Part shown: positions 1-28,006 of the stretch, piece after piece
How positions within the stretch are numbered: position 1 is the first letter of the stretch
Layout of the letters: the number at the start of each line of letters is the position of its first letter
Assembly (NCBI GenBank): GCA_023128825.1
Contig: JAGMDF010000019.1
Span: 1-41,348, forward strand
Direction of reading: 5' to 3'
Origin: Caldifarciminota bacterium
GTDB taxonomy: Bacteria > Hydrothermota > Tepidihabitantia > B3-TA06
Length of the DNA stretch: 41,348 nucleotides
Notes under the pieces: generated by a model
Seen by the model: only the letters and a program-made list of their open reading frames with translations
Database searches by the model: none
What the model was told of the DNA's origin: nothing
Translations under genes and position numbers: made by a program

Positions 1-63
1 GCTCAGTGGTAGAGCATCACCTTGCCAAGGTGGGGGTCACGGGTTCGAAACCCGTCTCCCGCT
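1..63 (+). tRNA. tRNA-Gly (GCC anticodon), 5' end cut off by the window; element attL
   Basis: D-arm GCTCAGTGGTAGAGC, anticodon loop TTGCCAA, T-arm CGGGTTCGAAACCCG, acceptor strand ...CTCCCGCT. Confidence 0.9.
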
Positions 64-91
64 TTCCTTTCAACGACTTATGCGAACCGAC

Positions 92-1291
92 TTAAGACCC
101 CTTCTCTAATTGCACCACTTTTGCACCAAGAGAATCCGCCATTTGCTGAACGTGCTTTGGGGAAATGTGGGTATATCGCCGCACCATTGACAAACTCTTA
201 TGGCCAGAGTAAGCCTGAATCTCCAGATCACTATAGCCCTTATCGCCGAGTATCGAGAAACAAGTATGTCTCAGCATGTGGAAGCAAACGTCTTTAAGCC
301 CCGCCCACTTGCAGGCGGTTTTGAATGATCTTCGCCAATCTCCGTAGGCGGTGTCATCGGAGTTACAGAAAACGTAATGAGCGTGGGGATATTTATTCCT
401 GAGCGCAAGCAGGACCTCACGTAACTCATCGGGCATCGGCTTATAGAAAACTGTCTTAGTTTTGGTTTGACGAACCCGAAGTAGATTTCTTCGAAAGTCT
501 ACATCATCCCAAGTAAGCCTTTGAAGTTCACCTTTACGCAATCCTGAAAGTACAGCAACTTTGACAATCTCGTAGAGGATCGGATTATCGCTAAGTTTGC
601 AAGCCTCAAGTAGACGATATAATTCTTCTTCAGTGAGACCCATACGTTCATTGAACGTATAAAAATCGCCGTGGTTGTGCACTATTGGGAAAGGGATTAT
701 CTTCTGAGCAGGATTGGTAGCAATGTAACCTTTGTCTTCTGCGAATTTGAAGATGAGTTTGATTGTAGTAAGTTCACGGTTAACCGTACAGACATTTATC
801 TTTTGTTCATATCGTGTACCGTCTTTAATACGGACAACCGTCTTATCTTTGCGCCGTTCCAAGTAGGTAGTGAGTTGGTGTTCAGTAATCTCGGAGACTT
901 TCTTATTACCAAACTCCTTACGAAGGTTCTTAAGTCTACTCTTATCGTTTTCAACCGTAGAGGGCATCCATCTTTTTTCGATGTATTGCTCAAATTCCTT
1001 AGCGAGTTGAGAAAACGTAATCGGTGATTGACGCCTAGCTGTTTTTGGGTCTCCTGCCCTTTGTACGATTTCCTTGATCTTCAATAGAGCCTTATCGTAG
1101 TCGGCCTCTCCAGTGGAGAGCATCCGTCGTTGTCCATTGAGCCAAAACCTGATATACCAGCGTCCGTTCTTACGCCGATATATGGTCACGTCTACTATGA
1201 GTGTACCCCCATGAAGCATTATGTCAAGTCGTACTTTCCGGTTATGCCTCGATCTCCTTCGCAGTACGAGCTGATCCGTAACAATTCCCAT
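92..1291 (-). CDS. Tyrosine recombinase / site-specific integrase
   Basis: GLRKGELQRLTWDDV, HMLRHT, YSGHKSLSMVRRYTH (R..HxxR..H..Y signature); adjacent to tRNA; GGGAG upstream of ATG. Confidence 0.93.
   Translation of the reverse strand: MGIVTDQLVLRRRSRHNRKVRLDIMLHGGTLIVDVTIYRRKNGRWYIRFWLNGQRRMLSTGEADYDKALLKIKEIVQRAGDPKTARRQSPITFSQLAKEFEQYIEKRWMPSTVENDKSRLKNLRKEFGNKKVSEITEHQLTTYLERRKDKTVVRIKDGTRYEQKINVCTVNRELTTIKLIFKFAEDKGYIATNPAQKIIPFPIVHNHGDFYTFNERMGLTEEELYRLLEACKLSDNPILYEIVKVAVLSGLRKGELQRLTWDDVDFRRNLLRVRQTKTKTVFYKPMPDELREVLLALRNKYPHAHYVFCNSDDTAYGDWRRSFKTACKWAGLKDVCFHMLRHTCFSILGDKGYSDLEIQAYSGHKSLSMVRRYTHISPKHVQQMADSLGAKVVQLEKGS
108..129 (+). repeat. Left copy of 22-bp repeat AATTGCACCACTTTTGCACCAA (candidate integrase arm-type sites)
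   Basis: Identical 22-mer at 9813-9834; contains TTGCACCA twice, 11 bp apart. Confidence 0.7.
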
Positions 1292-1304
1292 CTCAACACT
1301 CCCG

Positions 1305-1760
1305 TCAACCCGAATCCCAGTATTTTTTAGGGATGAAGATGAAAGGTGGTTGTTCCCAGGTTACTTCTTTCTTGATGTATCGAGCAACAGCTTCTTTAGA
1401 GCGAATCGGTTCTATCTTGATTGCCTTGCTTGAAAACCACCTTCCATAAGCTTTCGCCCACAGTTTTGCATAAACTTCAGCAGTAAGCGAAGGGTGAGCC
1501 TCTTGCATCATGTGTATGTTTGGTCTAGCACGTTCAATTTCAACTGCAAAGACCGTCATCAATCCGTCGTGATGTTCACGAAAATGCCGTCCACAAGCGT
1601 GCTCATTGGTTAAACGCCACAGCTTCACGCCTCTGTCATAAGCCCACTCATAGCTTGGTGTTTTGCTGAAAGTAAATGTGGCAAAGGTTTGCAGGTGATC
1701 TGACAAATCCATCACCCACTTGAAGTATTCATCACCTGCATGAGTTTTATTCAAACCCAT
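1305..1760 (-). CDS. Putative HUH-superfamily Rep-like replication initiator (small)
   Basis: FATFTF (motif 1-like), PNIHMM (motif 2-like, first His replaced by Asn), AVARYIKKEV (YxxK motif 3-like); strong RBS GGAG; ends 13 nt before the integrase start. Confidence 0.5.
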   Translation of the reverse strand: MGLNKTHAGDEYFKWVMDLSDHLQTFATFTFSKTPSYEWAYDRGVKLWRLTNEHACGRHFREHHDGLMTVFAVEIERARPNIHMMQEAHPSLTAEVYAKLWAKAYGRWFSSKAIKIEPIRSKEAVARYIKKEVTWEQPPFIFIPKKYWDSG

Positions 1761-1778
1761 AACATATCTCCTTTCTTA

Positions 1779-1801
1779 AAGTCTACCAATTTAGTAGACT
1801 T
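1779..1801. promoter_or_regulatory. Perfect 8-bp inverted repeat AAGTCTAC-N7-GTAGACTT upstream of the rep-like gene (candidate operator)
   Basis: Direct reading of the sequence. Confidence 0.45.
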
Positions 1802-1956
1802 AACTTCCAATACAGAGTCAAGACAGCGGAAGCTTACTCCCAACTGTTCTTGAACTATGTCCATCTCTCTCATTGCCCGGAAACGCCAGACAATGAGTTC
1901 TTTTTCAAGAACGTATTGTTTTGCAGGTGAATGTACTTTGGGTTGTGGCGAGACTA

Positions 1957-2024
1957 AGTTAAGCCGCCAGTTTCCTGGATTAGGCTAAATAGCCGCCAGG
2001 TTACTGGGTTAGGCGAACTTAACT
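1957..2024. other. Structured region A: 7-bp outer stem enclosing two 23-nt hairpin direct repeats
   Basis: AGTTAAG(1957-1963)/CTTAACT(2018-2024); GCCGCCAGTTTCCTGGATTAGGC and GCCGCCAGGTTACTGGGTTAGGC, each with CCAG/CTGG and GCC/GGC stems. Confidence 0.65.
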
Positions 2025-2050
2025 GCCGTCCGCCGTAATTCCACTTGTGA

Positions 2051-2145
2051 ATCTAGGTCGCTGAGGCTTCCCGAATGGGTTTGAGACTCAGCTGAACCGA
2101 CCGCCCTTACGGGTTGTGGTCTAAGTTCAGCCTTGCGACTTAGAT
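2051..2145. other. Structured region B: potential three-way junction with an 11-bp closing stem
   Basis: ATCTAGGTCGC(2051-2061)/GCGACTTAGAT(2135-2145), one G.U in RNA; arms TGAG/CTCA (2062-2090) and GCTGAAC/GTTCAGC (2091-2131) with inner GACC/GGTC and CCC-TTAC-GGG. Confidence 0.7.
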
Positions 2146-2166
2146 CTTTGTACTTGTAGAAGCGAG

Positions 2167-2204
2167 TTAAGGAAACCTTCCTTACGGGTTTAGGTTTCAG
2201 TTAA
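2167..2204. other. Structured region C: hairpin TTAA-GGAAACC...GGTTTC-AG-TTAA
   Basis: GAAACC 2172-2177 pairs with GGTTTC 2193-2198; TTAA/TTAA outer; apical CC-TTAC-GG as in region B. Confidence 0.55.
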
Positions 2205-2311
2205 ACCCGCCTCTTTTTAACTAATAAACTCTTTAAAAATCCTATGCAAACTCAAAGAGCAAACCCTTATCCCTATATCTCCAGGGGTACGCCCCCCTAG
2301 AGGGTGAATAC

Positions 2312-2335
2312 CCCCATACCCACCCCCATACCCAC
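2312..2335 (+). repeat. Two tandem 12-bp repeats CCCCATACCCAC
   Basis: Direct reading. Confidence 0.7.
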
Positions 2336-2349
2336 AAGGGCGCTGGTTG

Positions 2350-2862
2350 CTAGGCCTGGGTGGGTGCTCTCGTTGAACTATCATTAAACATTCGTCCTAG
2401 TGCTTTGGCAGCCAACCTCGCCCCCATCGGGCCGTCTGCGTTGGAAACTTTCCGGGCAAAGTGACACACCATGCCAAGCGCAACGCTTTCAAACTGTTTT
2501 AGCCGTGAGTAATATGGTTCAAGACCTTGTTCTGCAAACCTACACCAGCGATTCCAGCTTGAACGAGCCACAGCATTGACAGCAAAAATTCGTCCGAGCT
2601 CGAGACAATAAGGCTCGCTTGCTAGTTTCTCTAGGGTAGTTATGGTTGATTCAAACACTGTAGTTGGTCTTCCTATAGTCTTGGGTGGAATTGGAATAAT
2701 AGCATCCCAAGCGATAGCGCCTAGCCGTGCCATAACTGCGCTAGTCGTATCATCTATGCGTAGGCGTAACTTTGTAGTTCCTGATTGACGTAAAGTTGTA
2801 GCTCTTATCTGTCTAGTATCTGTCATAGAGCCAATTATAAAGAAAAAGGGTAAGCTTGTCAA
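2350..2862 (-). CDS. Hypothetical protein, possible HTH DNA-binding / terminase-small-subunit-like
   Basis: Pattern GRPTTVFESTITTLEKLA...NAVARSSWNRWCRFAEQ resembles HTH regions of TerS-like proteins; likely start at internal MTDTRQIR (about 2826). Confidence 0.35.
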   Translation of the reverse strand: MTSLPFFFIIGSMTDTRQIRATTLRQSGTTKLRLRIDDTTSAVMARLGAIAWDAIIPIPPKTIGRPTTVFESTITTLEKLASEPYCLELGRIFAVNAVARSSWNRWCRFAEQGLEPYYSRLKQFESVALGMVCHFARKVSNADGPMGARLAAKALGRMFNDSSTRAPTQA

Positions 2863-3071
2863 GTAAAGTTACGTAAGACAAATGTAACGATATAGAGCGA
2901 GACAATAGCTACAGGGATAGAGAGAATCGCATAAGCTACGCAGTAAGGGGATATACTAGGCGCGGAGGAAGCAAATACTACTAATGATAACTTATGCGAC
3001 AAATCCAATTCAACTTGAGTTAGCTAAAACCTCAAATCGAAGCGATGATAAGTAAAGTCATGATTCCTCCT

Positions 3072-4223
3072 TTACTCGGTGACCGTGATGTAGTCTCTTT
3101 TGGTGAGTGTGTCTTTTCCCCAGCGATCGCTTGCAATCAAACGAACCGTGTAAATACCGGGGCTATAGTAAATGTGGCTCAAACCTCCACCCCATTTTTT
3201 TGGTGCTCCCTCACCCACATACCACTCACGGTCCCAGGGTGTTCCTTCCCAATAGGTAGATAGATCGGAAAAATAGACATATAGAGGAACTTGTCCTTGA
3301 GTAGGTGTTGCATAGAAGTCGGCAATCGGAGGGTCGCCTGGCTCGTAATGGATGTAGTTTTCTTTTACCATTGTATCTGTTCCGCCAGGATTAGTAACGA
3401 TTAGCATAACTGTAAAAGCAGTATCATTCCAATAAGGAAGCATAGAATCCGCTGCATAACTATAGCTATGGCTGTATGGATTGTGTTCAGTAGAAGTATA
3501 ACCATCACCGAAATCCCAAAACCAGGAAGTAGGATCGTTGAGGGATTGATCATAAAAGTACACGCCAAATTGCCCTTTTCCTTCGGTAGGTTCGGCATAG
3601 AAATCGGCGATAGGCGGTGGAGGTAATTGAGCATGGATATAGTTTTCTTTTGTGAGCGTGTCGGTTCCGGCGATGTTAGAAACGATCAAGGCAACATCGT
3701 AAATACCTGCTTCGCCATAGTAACCCACAGGGTTTTGCATTGTATCTATACCATGATACTCTCCTTCTAATTCCCAGCGCCAAGAGGTAGGATCGTTGAG
3801 AGATTGGTCATGGAATTCTACTCTAAGAGAGATTAGCCCTTCGGTTGGTTCGGCGTAGAACTTAGCGATAGGTGGAAGTTGGGAGCCAGTGCCGCAGAAA
3901 ACTACGTCGGAGGTAGCAAGCAGGACCGAATCTTCATCATAGATCGAGAGCCAATACCAACCATCGGTAACGGATAGGGTAGAGGTGTAGACATCACTTG
4001 AGTCTACGTACCAGTATTCCGTCTGCACGAGCGAGTCTACGCCATACGCCCGATTCTCCCAATCCAGACGAGCGATGCCCGCTCCCTGGAGGTCTACGTA
4101 TGCGGTAACTGAATCAACATCCCCGCCAGGCGGCAGGATGTCAATAGCCTTGACTTTCAGAGACCCGGTTTGCGAGCATCCGATGATAAGCGCCAGAAGC
4201 GCTACGAGTTTAATGTGTTTCAT
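3072..4223 (-). CDS. Secreted lipoprotein with three PKD-like repeats
   Basis: Start MKHIKLVALLALIIGCSQTG (lipobox) preceded by AGGAGG; repeats PIADFYAEPTEG...DQSLNDPTSW.W; ORF extends upstream to 4373 but 4223 fits the RBS. Confidence 0.8.
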   Translation of the reverse strand: MKHIKLVALLALIIGCSQTGSLKVKAIDILPPGGDVDSVTAYVDLQGAGIARLDWENRAYGVDSLVQTEYWYVDSSDVYTSTLSVTDGWYWLSIYDEDSVLLATSDVVFCGTGSQLPPIAKFYAEPTEGLISLRVEFHDQSLNDPTSWRWELEGEYHGIDTMQNPVGYYGEAGIYDVALIVSNIAGTDTLTKENYIHAQLPPPPIADFYAEPTEGKGQFGVYFYDQSLNDPTSWFWDFGDGYTSTEHNPYSHSYSYAADSMLPYWNDTAFTVMLIVTNPGGTDTMVKENYIHYEPGDPPIADFYATPTQGQVPLYVYFSDLSTYWEGTPWDREWYVGEGAPKKWGGGLSHIYYSPGIYTVRLIASDRWGKDTLTKRDYITVTE

Positions 4224-4675
4224 GGTTCCTCCTTGACGCCCAAGGATACTCTTGATTACCTTCTGTGTCAAGCCCTTGAGGTCAGAGCGCCAAGCTGCCA
4301 AAAATAAAAGAAGGGCGCGCGCCAGCAGTAGCCTTTCGTCAAAAGCCCCTCCGTTGTCGGTGTTTTTCCTCAAGCCATATCCGCCCGCTGCACCTCACCG
4401 CTCCGGTTTCGCACCTGCTCCACTGCGCTCACGGTGCCAACCCCGCCCGACCACCCTATTGTGAAAGGCAGCTCGCCGTGGGCTGTCCTCGGTCGCGCAG
4501 AAAGCCTTGCCTGCAAAAGACCGAACCAGGGTGTTGCCTTTTAAGTAAGAGACTAAGGTTGGCAAAACGTCCTGAAGATGCAGTCTGCGGCTAACGAAAC
4601 TGCGCGCCCTGCGGCAGCCACGCCTCACGCCTGCAGGACGGTGCCATATTCCTAAAAGCACTGCGGTTTGAGGGG

Positions 4676-4703
4676 TTGACAAAGGCTCTTTTTAGAATAT
4701 TGT
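4676..4703 (+). promoter_or_regulatory. Sigma70-like promoter for the restriction operon
   Basis: TTGACA-N16-TATTGT; followed by AGAGGAGG and ATG at 4743. Confidence 0.6.
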
Positions 4704-4742
4704 CTTTACGTAGAAGCGACTTAACTTAGAGGAGGAATTGTT

Positions 4743-4901
4743 ATGGCCGTATGGGTAGTCCGGGCAGGTGGAAGTGGAGAGTATGAAGATTTGGCTTTGG
4801 AGAAAGGGCTTGTAGTTATCGGGTGGTCTGAGCTTGGAGCCCTTTTAAAAGTAAGCACCCAGGAAGAATTGATACAAAACTGGGGCAAGGAGATGAAATG
4901 A
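4743..4901 (+). CDS. 52-aa protein resembling the N-terminal segment of EVE/Mrr-type restriction proteins
   Basis: MAVWVVRAGGSGEYEDLALEKGLVVIGWSELGALLKVSTQEELIQNWGKEMK; AGGAGG RBS; stop overlaps the next ATG (ATGA). Absent from the supplied ORF track because of length. Confidence 0.6.
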   Translation: MAVWVVRAGGSGEYEDLALEKGLVVIGWSELGALLKVSTQEELIQNWGKEMK

Positions 4902-5686
4902 AACCATATAAAATAATCGACGAAGTATCAGAGCAACAACTCGAAGAGCTTGTGCGGACTCATGCGGACATGATTGAGGAAGGTTTGTCCTACCTGGGTC
5001 ATCAGAAACCTGCGGCAGGCGGCAGACTGGATGTCTTGTTGGTTGACAGCGGCAAGTCTTTAGTCGTTGCTGAACTCAAGGTTGTAAAGGACGACGATAT
5101 GCTGATACAGGCCGTTGACTATTATGACGATGTCTCTAGTCATGTCGAGGCGTACGCCCGCATCTACCAGCAGACCTCACAGATTGATCCGAAGCAACAA
5201 GTCCGTCTTTTTCTCATCGCCCCTTCATTTACCCCGGCGCTTGTCAACCGTTGCAAATGGTTTAACATCCCTATCTTTCTCTTCACTTTCCAATGTCTAA
5301 GGTTCGATGGCATAGAAGAACTTGATTTGGTTCCGGTGTTCCAAGAGCAATCCATCCCTAGCCCACCAGAAGTATTCGAAGTTCCAACTGTTGAAGAACA
5401 CCTTAAATACATTACTGACACAAAAGTGAAGTCGAAAGCCAAAGCCCTTCTGGGTGAAATTGAGAAATGGAAACCAGGAAAGGTAACTCTAGACGCTGTT
5501 AAGTCTGCAATCTCCATCAAAGTGAACAATCGGGTCTTCGCTTACTTCTATCCTCGAAGGAAATTCTATGTACTGTCGACATATAATGAGCAAGAGGTAT
5601 GGACAGACTACCCAATAAATGATGATGAGGACCTATCAAAAATCAAGCCCGTCATGAAGGCTGCAATGGAGCGCAGGGTAAAATGA
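4898..5686 (+). CDS. PD-(D/E)XK endonuclease-like protein (NucS-like core)
   Basis: GGRLDVLLVDSGKSLVVAELKVV (D...ExK); C-terminal KPGKVTLDAVKSAISIKVNNRVFAYFYPRRKFYVL module. Confidence 0.65.
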   Translation: MKPYKIIDEVSEQQLEELVRTHADMIEEGLSYLGHQKPAAGGRLDVLLVDSGKSLVVAELKVVKDDDMLIQAVDYYDDVSSHVEAYARIYQQTSQIDPKQQVRLFLIAPSFTPALVNRCKWFNIPIFLFTFQCLRFDGIEELDLVPVFQEQSIPSPPEVFEVPTVEEHLKYITDTKVKSKAKALLGEIEKWKPGKVTLDAVKSAISIKVNNRVFAYFYPRRKFYVLSTYNEQEVWTDYPINDDEDLSKIKPVMKAAMERRVK

Positions 5687-5716
5687 TAAGTGTCCAGTTG
5701 GTTCCGGGGGAGTAAG

Positions 5717-7759
5717 ATGCATTTATCTATTGACGATATTTTCAGAAGCAAAGATACCCGACACAGCCTAACCCTTTTCACTGAAGAAGAAAAAGCTTGG
5801 ATCGAAGAACGCCTTTTTGAGAAGGAAGGGAAACCCTATTTAAATTGTTTGATTAAAGAGAAACCTCGCCAAGCGAAACCTGAAGAGATCGTTCGGCAAC
5901 TCTATGCTTACAAGCTGATTAAGGACTATGGCTATCCTGAAAAGAGAATTGCACTTGAACACCCTGTTCAATTTGGAACAGAAACCAAGTACGCGGATAT
6001 CGTCGTTTTCGATAAAGACAGGCCGACGGTCGAGTATATAATTGTTGAACTAAAAAGACCGAAACTAAAAGATGGGAAGGAACAACTACGTTCCTACTGT
6101 AATGCAACAGGCGCCCCGATAGGCGTATGGACTAACGGTGGACAGATCGAATATTACAACAGAAGAGACCCTAATTTCTTTGAACCAATTACAGACATCC
6201 CCAATGTAAATCAAACCCTCGCCGATATATTAAAGGAACGTTTCACATGGCGGGATTTGATAATCAAAGACAAGATATCGAATAGGGGAATATCGCTTAA
6301 GACAATTATCACCGACATGGAGGATGAAGTCCTTGCGAATGCCGGTGTGGATGTTTTCGAGGAAGTCTTCAAACTAGTATTCACAAAATTACATGATGAA
6401 ATGAAAAGCAGAGATGACAAGGTTGTCCTTGATCGCTTTGTTGAAACGAACATGAATCCTGAAGACGTTGGAGATTTCGAAAAGCTGAAGGAAGTATTGA
6501 AAGATTATGACGATTCAAAGTTCCGTACCTTGGAGTTCAGAAACACGGGTCAATCTGAAGGCGAACTGAAGATTAAAATCCAAAAGCTCTTTAATGAAGC
6601 CAAAGAAAAATGGTTTGGTGTATTTGACGATGAAAGCAAAATCACTCTTTCGCCTTCTCACCTTTCAATTTGTGTTTCAAGTTTGCAGGATGTGAAGCTC
6701 TTCAATTCAAACTTGCAGGTTATAGATGAAGCGTTTGAGTACCTGGTAAGCAAATCCTCCAAGGGTGAAAAGGGGCAGTACTTTACCCCCCGTCACGTTA
6801 TTGATATGTGCGTCAAGATGCTCAACCCCAAAAAAGGCGAATACATGATAGACACTGCCTCGGGTTCGTGCGGCTTTCCCGTTCATACGATATTCTACCT
6901 CACTGGTCATTTGTTTGAAAATACTGAAATCTCAAAGGAAGATAAAGAGGACGTGTTAAAGGTATTCGGGATTGACTTTGACGAAAAAGCCGTTCGGGTA
7001 GCAAGGACATTAAACCTTATCGCGGGTGACGGTGAATCGAACGTGCTTTACTTGAACACCCTTGATTATGAGCGCTGGGATGAAACCACCAAAACCGAGG
7101 AATGGCTGTTGACGTATGGCAAAGGTTTCAAAAGGCTTGAAGCGTTGAAGAAAGCAAAGGACTCAAATAAGGAATTCAAGTTTGATATCCTGATGGCAAA
7201 CCCGCCGTTTGCCGGAGACATTAAGGAACCAAGGATAATTCACAAGTACGATCTTGGTTACAATGAAAAGAGAAAGCCCAAAAACAAGGTAGGTAGGGAC
7301 ATTCTTTTCATCGAAAGGAATCTTGATTTTATTAAACCTGGCGGTCGTCTGGCAATCGTTCTTCCACAAGGCAGGTTGAACAACACGACCGATAAAGACA
7401 TCAGGAAATATATTACAGAAAAAGCGCGTATTATTGCGGTCGTAGGTTTGCATGGTAACACATTCAAACCTCATTCTGGGACAAAAACCAGCGTCCTTTT
7501 CCTGCAAAAATGGGACGACAAGCTTTGCCCTAAAAAGGAAGACTATCCGATTTTCTTTACCGTATCCGAAAAGTCAGGCAAGGACAACTCCGGTGATTAT
7601 GTTTACGTGAAGAACGGTGAAGGCAGGCCGAGGATGGATAAATACGGCCACCTAATAGTCGATCACGATCTACATAACCACGGGGGTGAATTGCCAGATG
7701 GTGTTGCTGAGGCCTTTATTGAATGGGCTAAAAAAGAAAAACTCTCCTTCTGGAATTGA
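5717..7759 (+). CDS. Restriction-modification protein: N-terminal HSDR_N-like nuclease domain fused to N6-adenine methylase (HsdM-like)
   Basis: EHPVQFGTETKYADIVVF...YIIVELKRPK (D..ExK), KGQYFTPRHVIDMCVKML, DTASGSCGF, ILMANPPF. ATG at 5717 with GGGGGAG RBS; ORF opens at GTG 5690. Confidence 0.85.
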   Translation: MHLSIDDIFRSKDTRHSLTLFTEEEKAWIEERLFEKEGKPYLNCLIKEKPRQAKPEEIVRQLYAYKLIKDYGYPEKRIALEHPVQFGTETKYADIVVFDKDRPTVEYIIVELKRPKLKDGKEQLRSYCNATGAPIGVWTNGGQIEYYNRRDPNFFEPITDIPNVNQTLADILKERFTWRDLIIKDKISNRGISLKTIITDMEDEVLANAGVDVFEEVFKLVFTKLHDEMKSRDDKVVLDRFVETNMNPEDVGDFEKLKEVLKDYDDSKFRTLEFRNTGQSEGELKIKIQKLFNEAKEKWFGVFDDESKITLSPSHLSICVSSLQDVKLFNSNLQVIDEAFEYLVSKSSKGEKGQYFTPRHVIDMCVKMLNPKKGEYMIDTASGSCGFPVHTIFYLTGHLFENTEISKEDKEDVLKVFGIDFDEKAVRVARTLNLIAGDGESNVLYLNTLDYERWDETTKTEEWLLTYGKGFKRLEALKKAKDSNKEFKFDILMANPPFAGDIKEPRIIHKYDLGYNEKRKPKNKVGRDILFIERNLDFIKPGGRLAIVLPQGRLNNTTDKDIRKYITEKARIIAVVGLHGNTFKPHSGTKTSVLFLQKWDDKLCPKKEDYPIFFTVSEKSGKDNSGDYVYVKNGEGRPRMDKYGHLIVDHDLHNHGGELPDGVAEAFIEWAKKEKLSFWN

Positions 7760-7763
7760 TCAA

Positions 7764-9206
7764 ATGCAGCATTCGATTGTCAACTACGTAACTTTACACG
7801 GTCAACCTTCTTTCAGAATAGATGCAGAATTTTATCACCCCCTGGCCGTGAAATATGAGAAAATGATCGAAGCAACTGACGGTGACACAATAAAAGGAAT
7901 TGGATGCAAGGTTGTCAGTGGGCCATTTGGTTCGACGTTAAAAAGCGATTCATATTTAACGAAAGGGGTTCCATTCATTAGGATATCCGATTTATCGAAC
8001 TTTACCATTGAGAAACAAAACCTAATCTATATTTCAGAAGAAGATAATGCAAGACTATCTTCTTCTCAGTTAAAAATAGGGGATTTAGTCCTCTCAAAAG
8101 TTGGAAACACAATAGGTATAGTTTCAATCATAACTGAAGAAATTGGAAAATGCAATATTAGTGAAAATAACATAGGAATCAAGTTCCCCGACAACTTTGA
8201 AGGGAATAAAAAAATTGCTACTCTTGTCTATTTGAACTGTTATATCGGACAATCACAGATACTCCGAGCGATTAGTGGAAATGCACAGCCTAAACTAAAT
8301 GTGTCTGATATTGAGGGCTTAATAATTCCCGGTTTTAAATATATCGATAAGGTACTTTCAAATATAGTTATTGAGGCGTTACGTTTAAACAATAAAAGCC
8401 AAGACTATTACAAGGTTGCAGAAACCATATTGTTGAACGAACTCAGCCTTGTGGGCTGGAACCCGAAGCACCGCCTTTCATTTGTCAATAACTACTCCGA
8501 TGCGCAGGAAGCCGGACGTATTGACGCTGAGTATTTCCAGCCAAAGTATAAAGCGATTGTTGAGGCAATTAGGAAATATCAAAGCAATGATGTCTTAGAA
8601 AATATTGTCACAATCAAAAAGTGTATCGAGCCGGGAAGTGAAGCGTATCAAGACGAAGGCAATCTATTCTTGCGTGTTAGCAATATATCTAAATATGGCA
8701 TTAGAGACGGGAATCAAAAGTATCTCAGCAACGAATTATACGAAGGGCTGAAAAAACATCAGCCTAAGAAAGGCGAAATTCTTCTGACAAAAGATGCAAC
8801 ACCAGGAATAGCTTACTATCTAAGTAATGAACCCGAGAAAATGATCCCTTCTGGTGGAATACTTCGGCTAACTGTTAGAAAAGGTGCTGGGGTCTTGCCG
8901 GAGTATCTGACACTTGTGTTGAACTCAATCATTGTGCAAAAGCAAATGGAGCGCGATGCTGGCGGTTCAATAATAAATCACTGGCTTGTTGGTCAAATCG
9001 AAAACACACTTATACCGAAAGCAGATGACACAATACAGGAAACAATTGCAGAAAAAGTGAATGAATCATTCCAAAGTCGAAAGAAAGCAAAAGCCCTTCT
9101 TGAGATTGCCAAGCGAGGTGTGGAAATAGCCATTGAGAAGACTGAAGCTGAAGCTGAAAAATGGATGAAAGCCGAAGCCAACAAATTGGGGATTGAACTT
9201 GCGTGA
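7764..9206 (+). CDS. Type I-like specificity subunit (HsdS)
   Basis: Two TRD-like halves (SGPFGSTLKSDSYLTKGVPFIRISDL; KGEILLTKDATPGIAYYL); directly follows the methylase stop. Confidence 0.85.
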   Translation: MQHSIVNYVTLHGQPSFRIDAEFYHPLAVKYEKMIEATDGDTIKGIGCKVVSGPFGSTLKSDSYLTKGVPFIRISDLSNFTIEKQNLIYISEEDNARLSSSQLKIGDLVLSKVGNTIGIVSIITEEIGKCNISENNIGIKFPDNFEGNKKIATLVYLNCYIGQSQILRAISGNAQPKLNVSDIEGLIIPGFKYIDKVLSNIVIEALRLNNKSQDYYKVAETILLNELSLVGWNPKHRLSFVNNYSDAQEAGRIDAEYFQPKYKAIVEAIRKYQSNDVLENIVTIKKCIEPGSEAYQDEGNLFLRVSNISKYGIRDGNQKYLSNELYEGLKKHQPKKGEILLTKDATPGIAYYLSNEPEKMIPSGGILRLTVRKGAGVLPEYLTLVLNSIIVQKQMERDAGGSIINHWLVGQIENTLIPKADDTIQETIAEKVNESFQSRKKAKALLEIAKRGVEIAIEKTEAEAEKWMKAEANKLGIELA

Positions 9207-9777
9207 GTACAGTAAAGAATGGCTTGAAAAGGCGCACGTAGACTACTTCTCCCAGTTTATGGCCTTGTGGCTTGGGTTTAACTCCTGGTATAGATCTCAG
9301 TATTCAGATCTTGGGAAAAATGACCGTTCCTTGATTGATAAAATGAAATCCGATTTTACCGGAAGAAATCACATTTACACAAGGTTTTGTGACCTAATGG
9401 CTATTGCATCAATAAAAGAAAACCTTAGATTCAAATCAAATTTGGAATCCTTGCACTACACCTTGAACCGTGCTTCGACCAAATACCCAGATGGGTACTA
9501 CAATTACCCAATTACTTTCGAGTACGCTTTATTCGCTTATAAAAACCGGAAAGTAACCACTGGATATAAGAACCTAATTAGAACGAAAGGGCAGCACGAT
9601 AAAATAAAACTCGATGAGATTTATATCACTGATGACAATGAGAAAATCTTTCCGTGTTTACTTGAAATAATATATCAAATCCGTTGTTACCTTTTCCACG
9701 GGGACATTGAACCTTCAAGTGAAAATCACGAAGTAGTTAAGTATTGCTATTTTATTTTGTGGGACTTGATGAATTAA
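9193..9777 (+). CDS. HEPN-like protein, putative RNase toxin or guard of the RM operon
   Basis: C-terminal EIIYQIRCYLFHGD fits HEPN RxxxxH; TTG start overlaps the hsdS stop. Confidence 0.5.
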   Translation: MNLREYSKEWLEKAHVDYFSQFMALWLGFNSWYRSQYSDLGKNDRSLIDKMKSDFTGRNHIYTRFCDLMAIASIKENLRFKSNLESLHYTLNRASTKYPDGYYNYPITFEYALFAYKNRKVTTGYKNLIRTKGQHDKIKLDEIYITDDNEKIFPCLLEIIYQIRCYLFHGDIEPSSENHEVVKYCYFILWDLMN

Positions 9778-9803
9778 AACCTCATATCCTGCCTCTTTAA
9801 CCT

Positions 9804-9834
9804 CTGCACCAAAATTGCACCACTTTTGCACCAA
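9804..9834 (+). repeat. Right set of YTGCACCA repeats (3 copies, 11-bp period)
   Basis: YTGCACCA at 9804, 9815 and 9826; includes the exact 22-mer shared with the left end. Confidence 0.7.
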
Positions 9835-9989
9835 TCCCTTGATTTTAGGCGGGTTAGAGATACCACCAATGCCATAAAAGCCAAAGCCCCCTACTTTGGA
9901 GCAAAGACGTACCTGTGCCCTAAGTATCCTAAACACGTCGCTTGTCGGTATATCAGGTTGGCTCAGTATTTTGTCTATAGACCCCCATT

Positions 9990-10038
9990 ACCTTGCCAAG
10001 GTGGGGGTCGCGGGTTCAAAACCCGTCTCCCGCTTTCC
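9990..10038 (+). repeat. attR: partial duplicate of the tRNA-Gly 3' end
   Basis: Matches 19-67 from the anticodon arm to past the acceptor end; no D-arm of a tRNA immediately upstream. Confidence 0.85.
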
Positions 10039-10079
10039 CCGTAACACCCCCCCGTAACACCCCCCCCGTAACACACCCC
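10036..10079 (+). repeat. Short C-rich tandem repeat (CCCCGTAACACCCC units, about 3 copies)
   Basis: CCCCGTAACACCCCCCCGTAACACCCCCCCCGTAACACACCCC. Confidence 0.8.
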
Positions 10080-10162
10080 AAAATCATCGAATCGTTCAGG
10101 CTGCCTCGCTTGCAAAATCGCCGAATTCGACTATGCTGTAACAAACAGAGATAAGGAGGGGG

Positions 10163-25198: not shown

Positions 25199-28006
25199 AT
25201 GGCCAAAAAAAATCCAAACTTGGTTGAGCTTGATCAACTCAAGGAATACCTGCTTAACCCAGGTAAAGAGAAGGCCAAAGATTATTTGGCATTCCCGCTG
25301 TTCAAGAAATTGTTTGGCAGCAAGTTCAAAAAGGAAACGGATGCTGCCCGTGCGGACATCTATATTCAAGGGCAATTGCTGGTCGAACTAAAATCCGATT
25401 CCCGCGACTACATCGCAGGTTTCTACCAGGCGCTCCATTACGCGAAGCTAGGGTTATCTTTCTCTGCCATCTGTGTTATAGCACAGAAGTTCATCGCGTT
25501 GTGGAAGGTGAACAAAATCCCCGACCACGCAAAGCGCCTATCGGCAAAAGCGGATGCGACCATGCCTCCGAATGCCATCGGTGCCCTAAATGCTAGACGA
25601 ACGACAAAGGCACAGTCCATCGAAATTCTCAATGCTGCAGTATTCAAGTTGGTTCCGGCAGACTTTGAAGGATTATTTAAGAGGGATTTCGACACGGCGC
25701 TCCCCGAGTTCGTTCAAGTGCTTAAAAACCTGGAGGCAAAGCGTATTCAGATCGATACGCACAACTTCATTGACAGTATTAAACAGCTTGAAAGATTCTT
25801 CGAAGATCCCTTGGATGCTGTCCACTGCTTCTACGCTATTGTCGGTTTCTGGGATGTCACATCAACTGTTGCCACTGATGCGTCAGGTGAGCTTTTCTTG
25901 ATTGGAAAGAGGGGGTCAAAGGTCAGCGAGAAATTGAAAATCAAGCCTCGTCTCCATGAGGAGTTCAAAAAATTTGTTGAGAGCCGTTACGTCTTCACAA
26001 ATGAAGGTTCTGGTCTGACAGTTGATTATTATTTCAGTCGGTTTGACGAAGTCATTACCCGCATCAAACCCGAATATGCCAGGCAGCATGGCATATTTTT
26101 TACCGACAATAATCTCAGTAAGTTCGCTCTCTGGTTCGTGCACGAGTTTTTCGAGAAGAGATTGAGCGATAGGTATATCGTTCTCGACCCCGCGGGCGGC
26201 TCAGGAAATTTGGTAACAAGTTGGAAGGGACACCTGAAACATAAGGTTATCTCAGAGTTGGAGCCCGACTTGCTCAAAACCATTGAGCGCCGGATGAAGC
26301 TCGACCCTGAGCAGATCGAAGGTGGTTTTACCATCATTCCGAAAACGAACGAAAATAAGGGTTTGAACTTCTTAGACAAATCCGCAGAGCAATATGTGAA
26401 ACGTCTTTTGGCGGAACTAAGAGACAAGGATATTAAGTTCGACAAGCCGATTGCTTTTCTTCTCAATCCTCCATACAAAAATACCGACGAAAGTGAAGCA
26501 TTCCGTACCAAAGTAGGCACAGTCTATCAAATTCACCCTTCCATTCTGGAATTGACCGGCCATGATGCAGGCAGGGAGCGTTACCTGGCTTTTCTTGGGC
26601 AAATCATCAATATTGCGCGACTGCAAATGGGTGACTTGCAATTAACGGAGTTGAAACCTGAGGACATTCACCTTCCTGCACCACAAGGTAAGAAGAAAAA
26701 GGTGACTCCGCTGATTCTCATCTTCACCCCGACATCGTGGCTGATCCCGCGACCGACCTACGTCCCGTTTAGAGAAATTTTCGACGCCTTTTTCAAATAC
26801 GAGATGGGGTTCATCTTCCTGGGGAATGAGTTTTTCAAAATTAAAGGGCGCTTCCCTATTTCTTTTACCATTTGGAGCTACCACTACAAGATAGGGGGAA
26901 ACAAGAATAACGTAATTGTAAAAGACCTGACTCATTTGACGAATTCCGATTTGGAGGTCAATTGGAATTTGCCGATAGAAACCATTTCAAAGAAACTGAA
27001 AAGCCTTGTCAAAGCAGCAAAGGACGTTCTGTTCAATAACACTCGTGGGGACATCAGAAATCTTCTTCCAAAGCTTGCGGACAAATCAGGCAAACTTATT
27101 ACCCAGCCTCGCTATGATTACAGCGTTGCGAAGAAAGATACTGAAATAGGAAAATTAGTGAGTGGTTTTCCGATAAAAGATGAAAAGAACCATTTCGAGT
27201 TGATGCGGAAATGTGGAGATGCACTTGGAGAGTTTGTCGGATTCATGGATGATAATACTCCAGTAAGGGTGAAACAGGACAGTTGTTCGAGAATGTCGAA
27301 TAAAGGGAACAGAGCATGGTTTCGATTAGACCTTGATTTCAAGGGCATGAATAAAACACGGATTCAAGCAGGTTGTCCAGATAATAGAGGTTATTGTGCA
27401 TACGATCTCAATTCCGCTAAGACTACGTTTTTATGGTTTGCAATGACCAAAGTTTTGAATGGACGGTACCCAGTGTGGGTGAACCAATTTGACATTTGGG
27501 CGCCAAACATACCACAGCAAAAGGAAAAACAATTCTATTCCCTCTGTTTCGCGTTCGGTTTGGCAGAGAACCGATGCGTCGTGACAAAGTTCGAGAAAGA
27601 TAATCCCGTAGAAGGCGCACCTGAAGTGTTCGTTGACAATCCGCTATGCCCGACCAATCCAGAATCCTTCTGGTCAACAACGCTCGACCGCGAAATCGTA
27701 GCCAGGCCTAAGTTGGCCCGCGAGTTAGTCGGGCTTGTCAAAGAACTCTATAAAAAATGGAATCAGAAGTACTGCAAGGGGCAAATCCTGTACAGCGTCG
27801 GGCTGCAAGACGAACCTTATTTCAAGTATTTCGACTATAAGGATTTCCTCACACCGTATTCAGGGCTTATCCAAATAAAAAAGTATGCAGAACTAAAAAA
27901 TCTCGAAGACCTGCTGAATCTCTTTGAAAAGATTTCTGCAAAGACCAAAGAAGTTCGAGAAGAGATTTACAGGCTATTGACGGAGGAGTTCGCGTATTTT
28001 GAATAG
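25199..28006 (+). CDS. Type IIG-like restriction-modification protein (PD-(D/E)XK-like N-terminus plus N6-adenine methylase)
   Basis: ARADIYIQGQLLVELKSD (D..ExK); DPAGGSGN; FLLNPPYKNTDE; stand-alone 935 aa. Confidence 0.75.
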   Translation: MAKKNPNLVELDQLKEYLLNPGKEKAKDYLAFPLFKKLFGSKFKKETDAARADIYIQGQLLVELKSDSRDYIAGFYQALHYAKLGLSFSAICVIAQKFIALWKVNKIPDHAKRLSAKADATMPPNAIGALNARRTTKAQSIEILNAAVFKLVPADFEGLFKRDFDTALPEFVQVLKNLEAKRIQIDTHNFIDSIKQLERFFEDPLDAVHCFYAIVGFWDVTSTVATDASGELFLIGKRGSKVSEKLKIKPRLHEEFKKFVESRYVFTNEGSGLTVDYYFSRFDEVITRIKPEYARQHGIFFTDNNLSKFALWFVHEFFEKRLSDRYIVLDPAGGSGNLVTSWKGHLKHKVISELEPDLLKTIERRMKLDPEQIEGGFTIIPKTNENKGLNFLDKSAEQYVKRLLAELRDKDIKFDKPIAFLLNPPYKNTDESEAFRTKVGTVYQIHPSILELTGHDAGRERYLAFLGQIINIARLQMGDLQLTELKPEDIHLPAPQGKKKKVTPLILIFTPTSWLIPRPTYVPFREIFDAFFKYEMGFIFLGNEFFKIKGRFPISFTIWSYHYKIGGNKNNVIVKDLTHLTNSDLEVNWNLPIETISKKLKSLVKAAKDVLFNNTRGDIRNLLPKLADKSGKLITQPRYDYSVAKKDTEIGKLVSGFPIKDEKNHFELMRKCGDALGEFVGFMDDNTPVRVKQDSCSRMSNKGNRAWFRLDLDFKGMNKTRIQAGCPDNRGYCAYDLNSAKTTFLWFAMTKVLNGRYPVWVNQFDIWAPNIPQQKEKQFYSLCFAFGLAENRCVVTKFEKDNPVEGAPEVFVDNPLCPTNPESFWSTTLDREIVARPKLARELVGLVKELYKKWNQKYCKGQILYSVGLQDEPYFKYFDYKDFLTPYSGLIQIKKYAELKNLEDLLNLFEKISAKTKEVREEIYRLLTEEFAYFE

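Follow-up and report, generated by a model that had tools for sequence, protein, structure and literature searches.

The linkage of HEPN domains to restriction-modification (R-M) systems was proposed in 2013 as a multi-pronged, second-line defence, with at least 16 HEPN clades involved (Anantharaman 2013; PMC3710099). That is, the idea itself is known. The well-studied case, PrrC guarding PrrI, needs a large Type I complex. PrrC and other R-M-linked HEPN families share with the locus presented here the placement of a (here predicted) HEPN RNase gene within an R-M operon, but in PrrC an ABC ATPase domain is present and the host is a complete Type I system including HsdR, whereas here a bare HEPN-like protein without a Pfam family accompanies a helicase-less R-M system. 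Variable defence genes inside or beside hsd genes are described as well, i.e., the Type I-embedded genes and TgvAB (PMC11411939). The rlo genes and TgvAB resemble our locus in having a variable defence gene in or near hsd genes; in contrast to them, the host operon here lacks HsdR, and the full-length HEPN-like protein is found only together with the operon's nuclease-methylase (M) and specificity (S) genes. Like our locus, the Type IIB enzymes BsaXI, BcgI and CspCI combine a nuclease-methylase (RM) fusion carrying an E-D-ExK tetrad with a separate S subunit and are motor-free. Compared with them, M is shorter here (680 aa vs. 916 aa for BsaXI) and a third, coupled HEPN gene is found only here.

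Our literature search found no paper joining HEPN with Type IIB. New are the motor-free host, the HEPN-like family outside Pfam that is full-length only next to M-S, and an exchangeable gene slot, i.e., a helicase-less and swappable HEPN-R-M form with a near-obligate link. This three-gene, motor-free version measures about 4 kb and occurs in E. coli and Klebsiella, such that the way in which a restriction enzyme would restrain and fire an RNase could be studied in a laboratory strain.

Operon layout and the Type IIB-like core

The window, i.e., the whole analysed stretch of 41,348 nt (contig JAGMDF010000019.1, Caldifarciminota bacterium), holds five consecutive forward-strand ORFs at 4743-9777. 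Their order (peptide, nuclease, nuclease-methylase, HsdS, HEPN-like protein) is the one given by a sequence-only reading of the same DNA. The core unit comprises three of these genes, namely M (5717-7759), HsdS (7764-9206) and the HEPN-like gene (9199-9777), all on the forward strand.

M fuses a PD-(D/E)XK nuclease to a gamma-class m6A methylase with an NPPF motif (Pfam HSDR_N_2, 1.1e-27, and N6_Mtase, 2.6e-35). According to Shine-Dalgarno (SD) sequence and homologues, it most likely starts at ATG 5717 behind GGGGGAG rather than at GTG 5690. Numbered from ATG 5717, the tetrad of the N-terminal domain is E81, D94, E111 and K113, and both tetrad and NPPF are invariant in 31/31 aligned rows of M. 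The catalytic residues of BsaXI are E73/D90/E105/K107 (PMC11997821). RM.BsaXI is also the top PDB sequence match of M (8.9e-16). The three top fold matches, all BsaXI (3.1e-16 to 1.6e-15, about 700 columns), outrank every Type I M protein, given a model of moderate quality (pLDDT 72). On Picosynechococcus pAQ6, a 59%-identical M is fused with S into one protein of 1179 aa, which resembles the single-chain IIB enzymes. Together, the closeness to BsaXI by sequence and fold, the kept tetrad and the M-S fusion of the Picosynechococcus relative support the helicase-less, Type IIB-like organisation first proposed from the letters of the window.

The separate S subunit matches PADLOC's Specificity_I (6.3e-34). 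Its most likely start, ATG 7764, lies 4 nt past the stop of M, which leaves the two genes without overlap. M and S are furthermore near-full-length distant homologues of MAD2 and MAD5, respectively (NCBIfam 4.9e-88 and 1.7e-35). MADS is an eight-gene system, and its other genes are not seen here. We reject MADS membership since both matches fall far below the equivalog cut-offs, i.e., 296 of 720 bits for M and 123 of 400 bits for HsdS.

No HsdR adjoins M, neither in the operon of the window nor in 80 related loci, where ORFs of at least 450 aa were scanned for helicase motifs without a profile search. The own genome, an assembly of about 91% completeness, has no match to PF18766 (SWI2_SNF2), while 10/14 control genomes do. 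That is, no HsdR with the SNF2-type motor of a Type I system was found, and the earlier observation of a missing motor subunit holds within the operon and just outside of it. Candidates for a hidden HsdR were dismissed, as the motif search returned only unrelated helicases 4-6 kb away or RecG-like ORFs.

The remaining two ORFs precede M. The first (4743-4901, +), behind a good SD sequence (GAGGAGG), encodes a peptide of 52 aa without a Pfam match. Among plasmids it has a single relative, the N-terminus of a Streptomyces ORF of 559 aa (45% over 40 aa), so we consider it a fragment of roughly one third of an EVE-like domain. Of its assignment as an EVE/Mrr-N-like peptide, the resemblance to this N-terminus stands, while it has no Pfam match and is only a fragment. 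The Streptomyces ORF (L162, 2480-4159) itself shows by eye an EVE-like N-terminus, followed by a CBS-like part and a HEPN-like end with RNKTMHF; a validated CBS-HEPN system, DS-11, offers itself for comparison (PMC13092281). The second ORF (4898-5686, +) encodes an optional NucS-C-like PD-(D/E)XK nuclease of 262 aa with kept D...ELK residues; its matches to NucS_C (1.7e-4) and PRK04247 (2.7e-8) are both below cut-off. Searches for NucS returned nothing from viral contigs and a single NucS domain match from plasmids. Neither gene occurs in any of the 80 related M loci, nor is there a match to either in the HEPN-anchored loci introduced below. Missing from the 80 loci, both appear lodger-like; the peptide is probably a lodger or a gene remnant, while the NucS-like gene could account for part of the restriction.

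Several overlapping starts and stops had been proposed for the operon. This applies to the peptide and the NucS-like gene (ATGA, 4898-4901) as well as to S and the HEPN-like gene, where TTG 9199, with GGGGA 6 nt upstream, overlaps the S stop TGA at 9204-9206. On the other hand, 30 nt separate the nuclease stop from M given its start at ATG 5717, and M and S are 4 nt apart. The suggested single promoter fares worse: there is a consensus match (TTGACA-16-TATTGT) at 4676, but the region shows 15 promoter-like sites where 10.2 +/- 3.8 are expected by chance.

The HEPN-like protein and its exchangeable place

The predicted RNase carries the motif RCYLFHG. While its ORF opens at TTG 9193, homologues fit the start at TTG 9199. 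The Rx4H residues (R164, H169) are invariant, in 12/12 and then 16/16 homologues. In the AlphaFold model (pLDDT 89.5), R164 and H169 end the helix 149-169, which is followed by the last helix and preceded by a beta-containing insert. The HEPN fold is described likewise, i.e., with Rx4-6H ending helix 3 before the last helix and an insert ahead (PMC3710099). Comparisons with Pfam, PHROGs, PADLOC and a PDB profile gave no significant match, and the best Foldseek match, AbiV, is not significant either (E 2.3, probability 0.04). HEPN membership thus rests on motif and topology, and we call the protein HEPN-like without filing it as a proven member. The earlier designation is kept in this sense, i.e., with an invariant Rx4H and HEPN topology to its credit and no known HEPN that it matches significantly by profile or fold.

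To see where the genes occur, we scanned 84,980 species genomes with M, which gave 80 loci of 61-81% identity from very diverse phyla. The constant pair among them is M and S. Considering the 59 fully visible loci (view of at least 700 bp past S), the HEPN-like gene is present in 11. Searches with the HEPN-like protein itself gave nine distinct loci: four viral ones (five found, two with identical sequence) and five new ones from class-wide samples of 391, 382 and 369 genomes, one of which sits in a genome already in the M scan. Here, HsdS lies directly upstream of HEPN in 9/9 loci and M is present in 8/8 where the contig reaches. Even in three loci with an M of merely 28-30% identity, HEPN is still accompanied by M-S. 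One viral copy (L134) is split across two frames. In phage records, no HEPN copy was found.

The whole M-S-HEPN cassette is also found on three E. coli chromosomes, out of 5,426 complete genomes, and on one Klebsiella plasmid. Another 465 plasmids, nearly all from Klebsiella, retain nothing of HEPN but its C-terminal half; the one plasmid we inspected has lost M-S and carries IS1 alongside. A C-terminal half in locus L137 (3992-4408) adjoins IS1 and two paired DUF262/GmrSD genes. No full-length homologue was found away from M-S, neither among the nine HEPN-anchored loci nor in Klebsiella and E. coli, while weak partial matches away from M-S occur in G056 (a MauJ-like protein), G047 and G166 (second match). 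The co-occurrence of the HEPN-like partner is therefore confirmed from the HEPN side, with S and M beside it. Extended to all five genes, co-occurrence is conserved for M-S-HEPN (9/9 HEPN-anchored loci) but not for nuclease and peptide (0/80). Given this absence and a HEPN present in a minority of M-S loci, the five-gene set is no unit.

Within the 59 fully visible loci, an extra gene of at least 150 aa lies between M and S in 22 and one follows S tightly in 11, with either position occupied in 32. In the other 27, no further gene is tightly linked to M-S, which therefore seems functional without HEPN. The position of HEPN varies, too, being between M and S in six loci and otherwise after S. 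Besides the HEPN family, the slot harbours RhuM-Fic, Fic, DUF4145, DUF1016-YhcG, Bro-N, NYN, DUF6119, Mrr and AAA genes, a list that takes in some loci cut by a contig end.

HEPN is scattered on the M tree (93 rows). We count 15 changes of the three-way label, and the starred branches force at least 11 changes of HEPN presence or absence; this is a quick tree in which rows cut by contig ends are scored as without HEPN, which inflates the count. With such scatter and 15 label changes, a single origin of the HEPN link was discarded.

Readings of the locus

That very distant bacteria, plasmids and viral contigs share this three-gene set suggests a defence that cuts DNA and brings along its own back-up toxin, the latter being a function we infer. 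We consider it fairly probable that the locus, on a tRNA-integrated island, encodes an R-M enzyme of Type IIB-like build to which a HEPN RNase is coupled. This reading builds on the observed gene content, catalytic residues, missing adjacent motor gene, stop/start overlap, co-occurrence and mobility. M and S would assemble into a complex of the (RM)2S type and methylate adenines of a bipartite site in self DNA, while unmethylated invading DNA would be cut near the site by the nuclease domain of M, with no translocating motor. HEPN, presumably the next protein translated after S on their common message, would be held in check by the M-S complex or in its vicinity. If M-S is neutralised or meets DNA beyond its capacity, HEPN may be freed or activated and would cut RNA, such that the cell is stopped.

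Alternatively, M-S may be the whole restriction system, with HEPN an embedded hitch-hiker acting independently. We regard this as rather unlikely, although there is precedent in TgvAB, which works alone from within a Type I locus (PMC11411939), and although the slot is filled by many unrelated genes and HEPN is often missing from M-S loci; an independent HEPN does not fit well with a full-length protein that was never found away from M-S, even at 28-30% M identity, and with a conserved, tight HEPN/S junction. The occurrence of the cassette on a recent island, plasmids and viral contigs could also speak for a toxin-antitoxin-like addiction in which M-S or its methylation restrains a toxic HEPN mainly to retain the island, with little phage defence. 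HEPN is indeed truncated where Klebsiella plasmids lost M-S, which may go back to one ancestral IS1-linked deletion; nearly all M relatives, however, keep nuclease and methylase residues that addiction alone does not require, and we deem this improbable. Least credible, and hardly to be expected, is one defence machine of all five genes. The ATGA overlap of peptide and nuclease, the nuclease placed 30 nt ahead of M and a NucS-like gene overlapping a distant M-S in locus L123 agree with it, but the two genes are absent from the 80 related loci, have no match in the HEPN-anchored ones, and the peptide is a fragment.

The slot permits a broader, tentative idea, i.e., that M-S is a general sensor of methylation state with interchangeable effectors under its control (HEPN, DUF4145, RhuM-Fic, Fic, DUF1016 nuclease, NYN, AAA and others), which might be inserted either between the two genes or immediately behind S. 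If true, one M-S sensor would serve many kinds of cell-stopping effector, and the swappable slot would provide natural experiments on effectors with a common sensor.

The integrative island

The operon is part of an island of about 10 kb (15-10038) in tRNA-Gly(GCC), within which the window starts. A 53-nt direct repeat, the 3' part of this tRNA gene, forms an attL-like copy at 15-67 (+), 94% identical to the attR-like copy at 9986-10038 (+) that marks the right island end. Just inside the repeat, a tyrosine integrase is encoded at 92-1291 on the reverse strand (Phage_integrase, 6.4e-32). Two sister genomes (G002 and G004) show the empty site, i.e., an intact tRNA-Gly with the flanking gene directly after it, and in G002 the right flank is 98.5% identical. 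The empty sites imply that the operon was gained recently.

We also note further elements in and around the island. A 151-aa ORF adjoining the integrase (1305-1760, -) looks Rep-like by eye and has no Pfam match, while a PKD-repeat protein (3072-4373, -) is an unusual cargo of the island. Positions 10040-10085 hold a short repeat of the CCCGTAACACCCCC type, which is scattered in genomes of the genus. Further downstream, a 935-aa ORF (25199-28006, +) has by eye the look of a Type IIG nuclease-methylase (ADIYIQGQLLVELKS, NPPY), with a Pfam N6_Mtase match of E 0.16 only.
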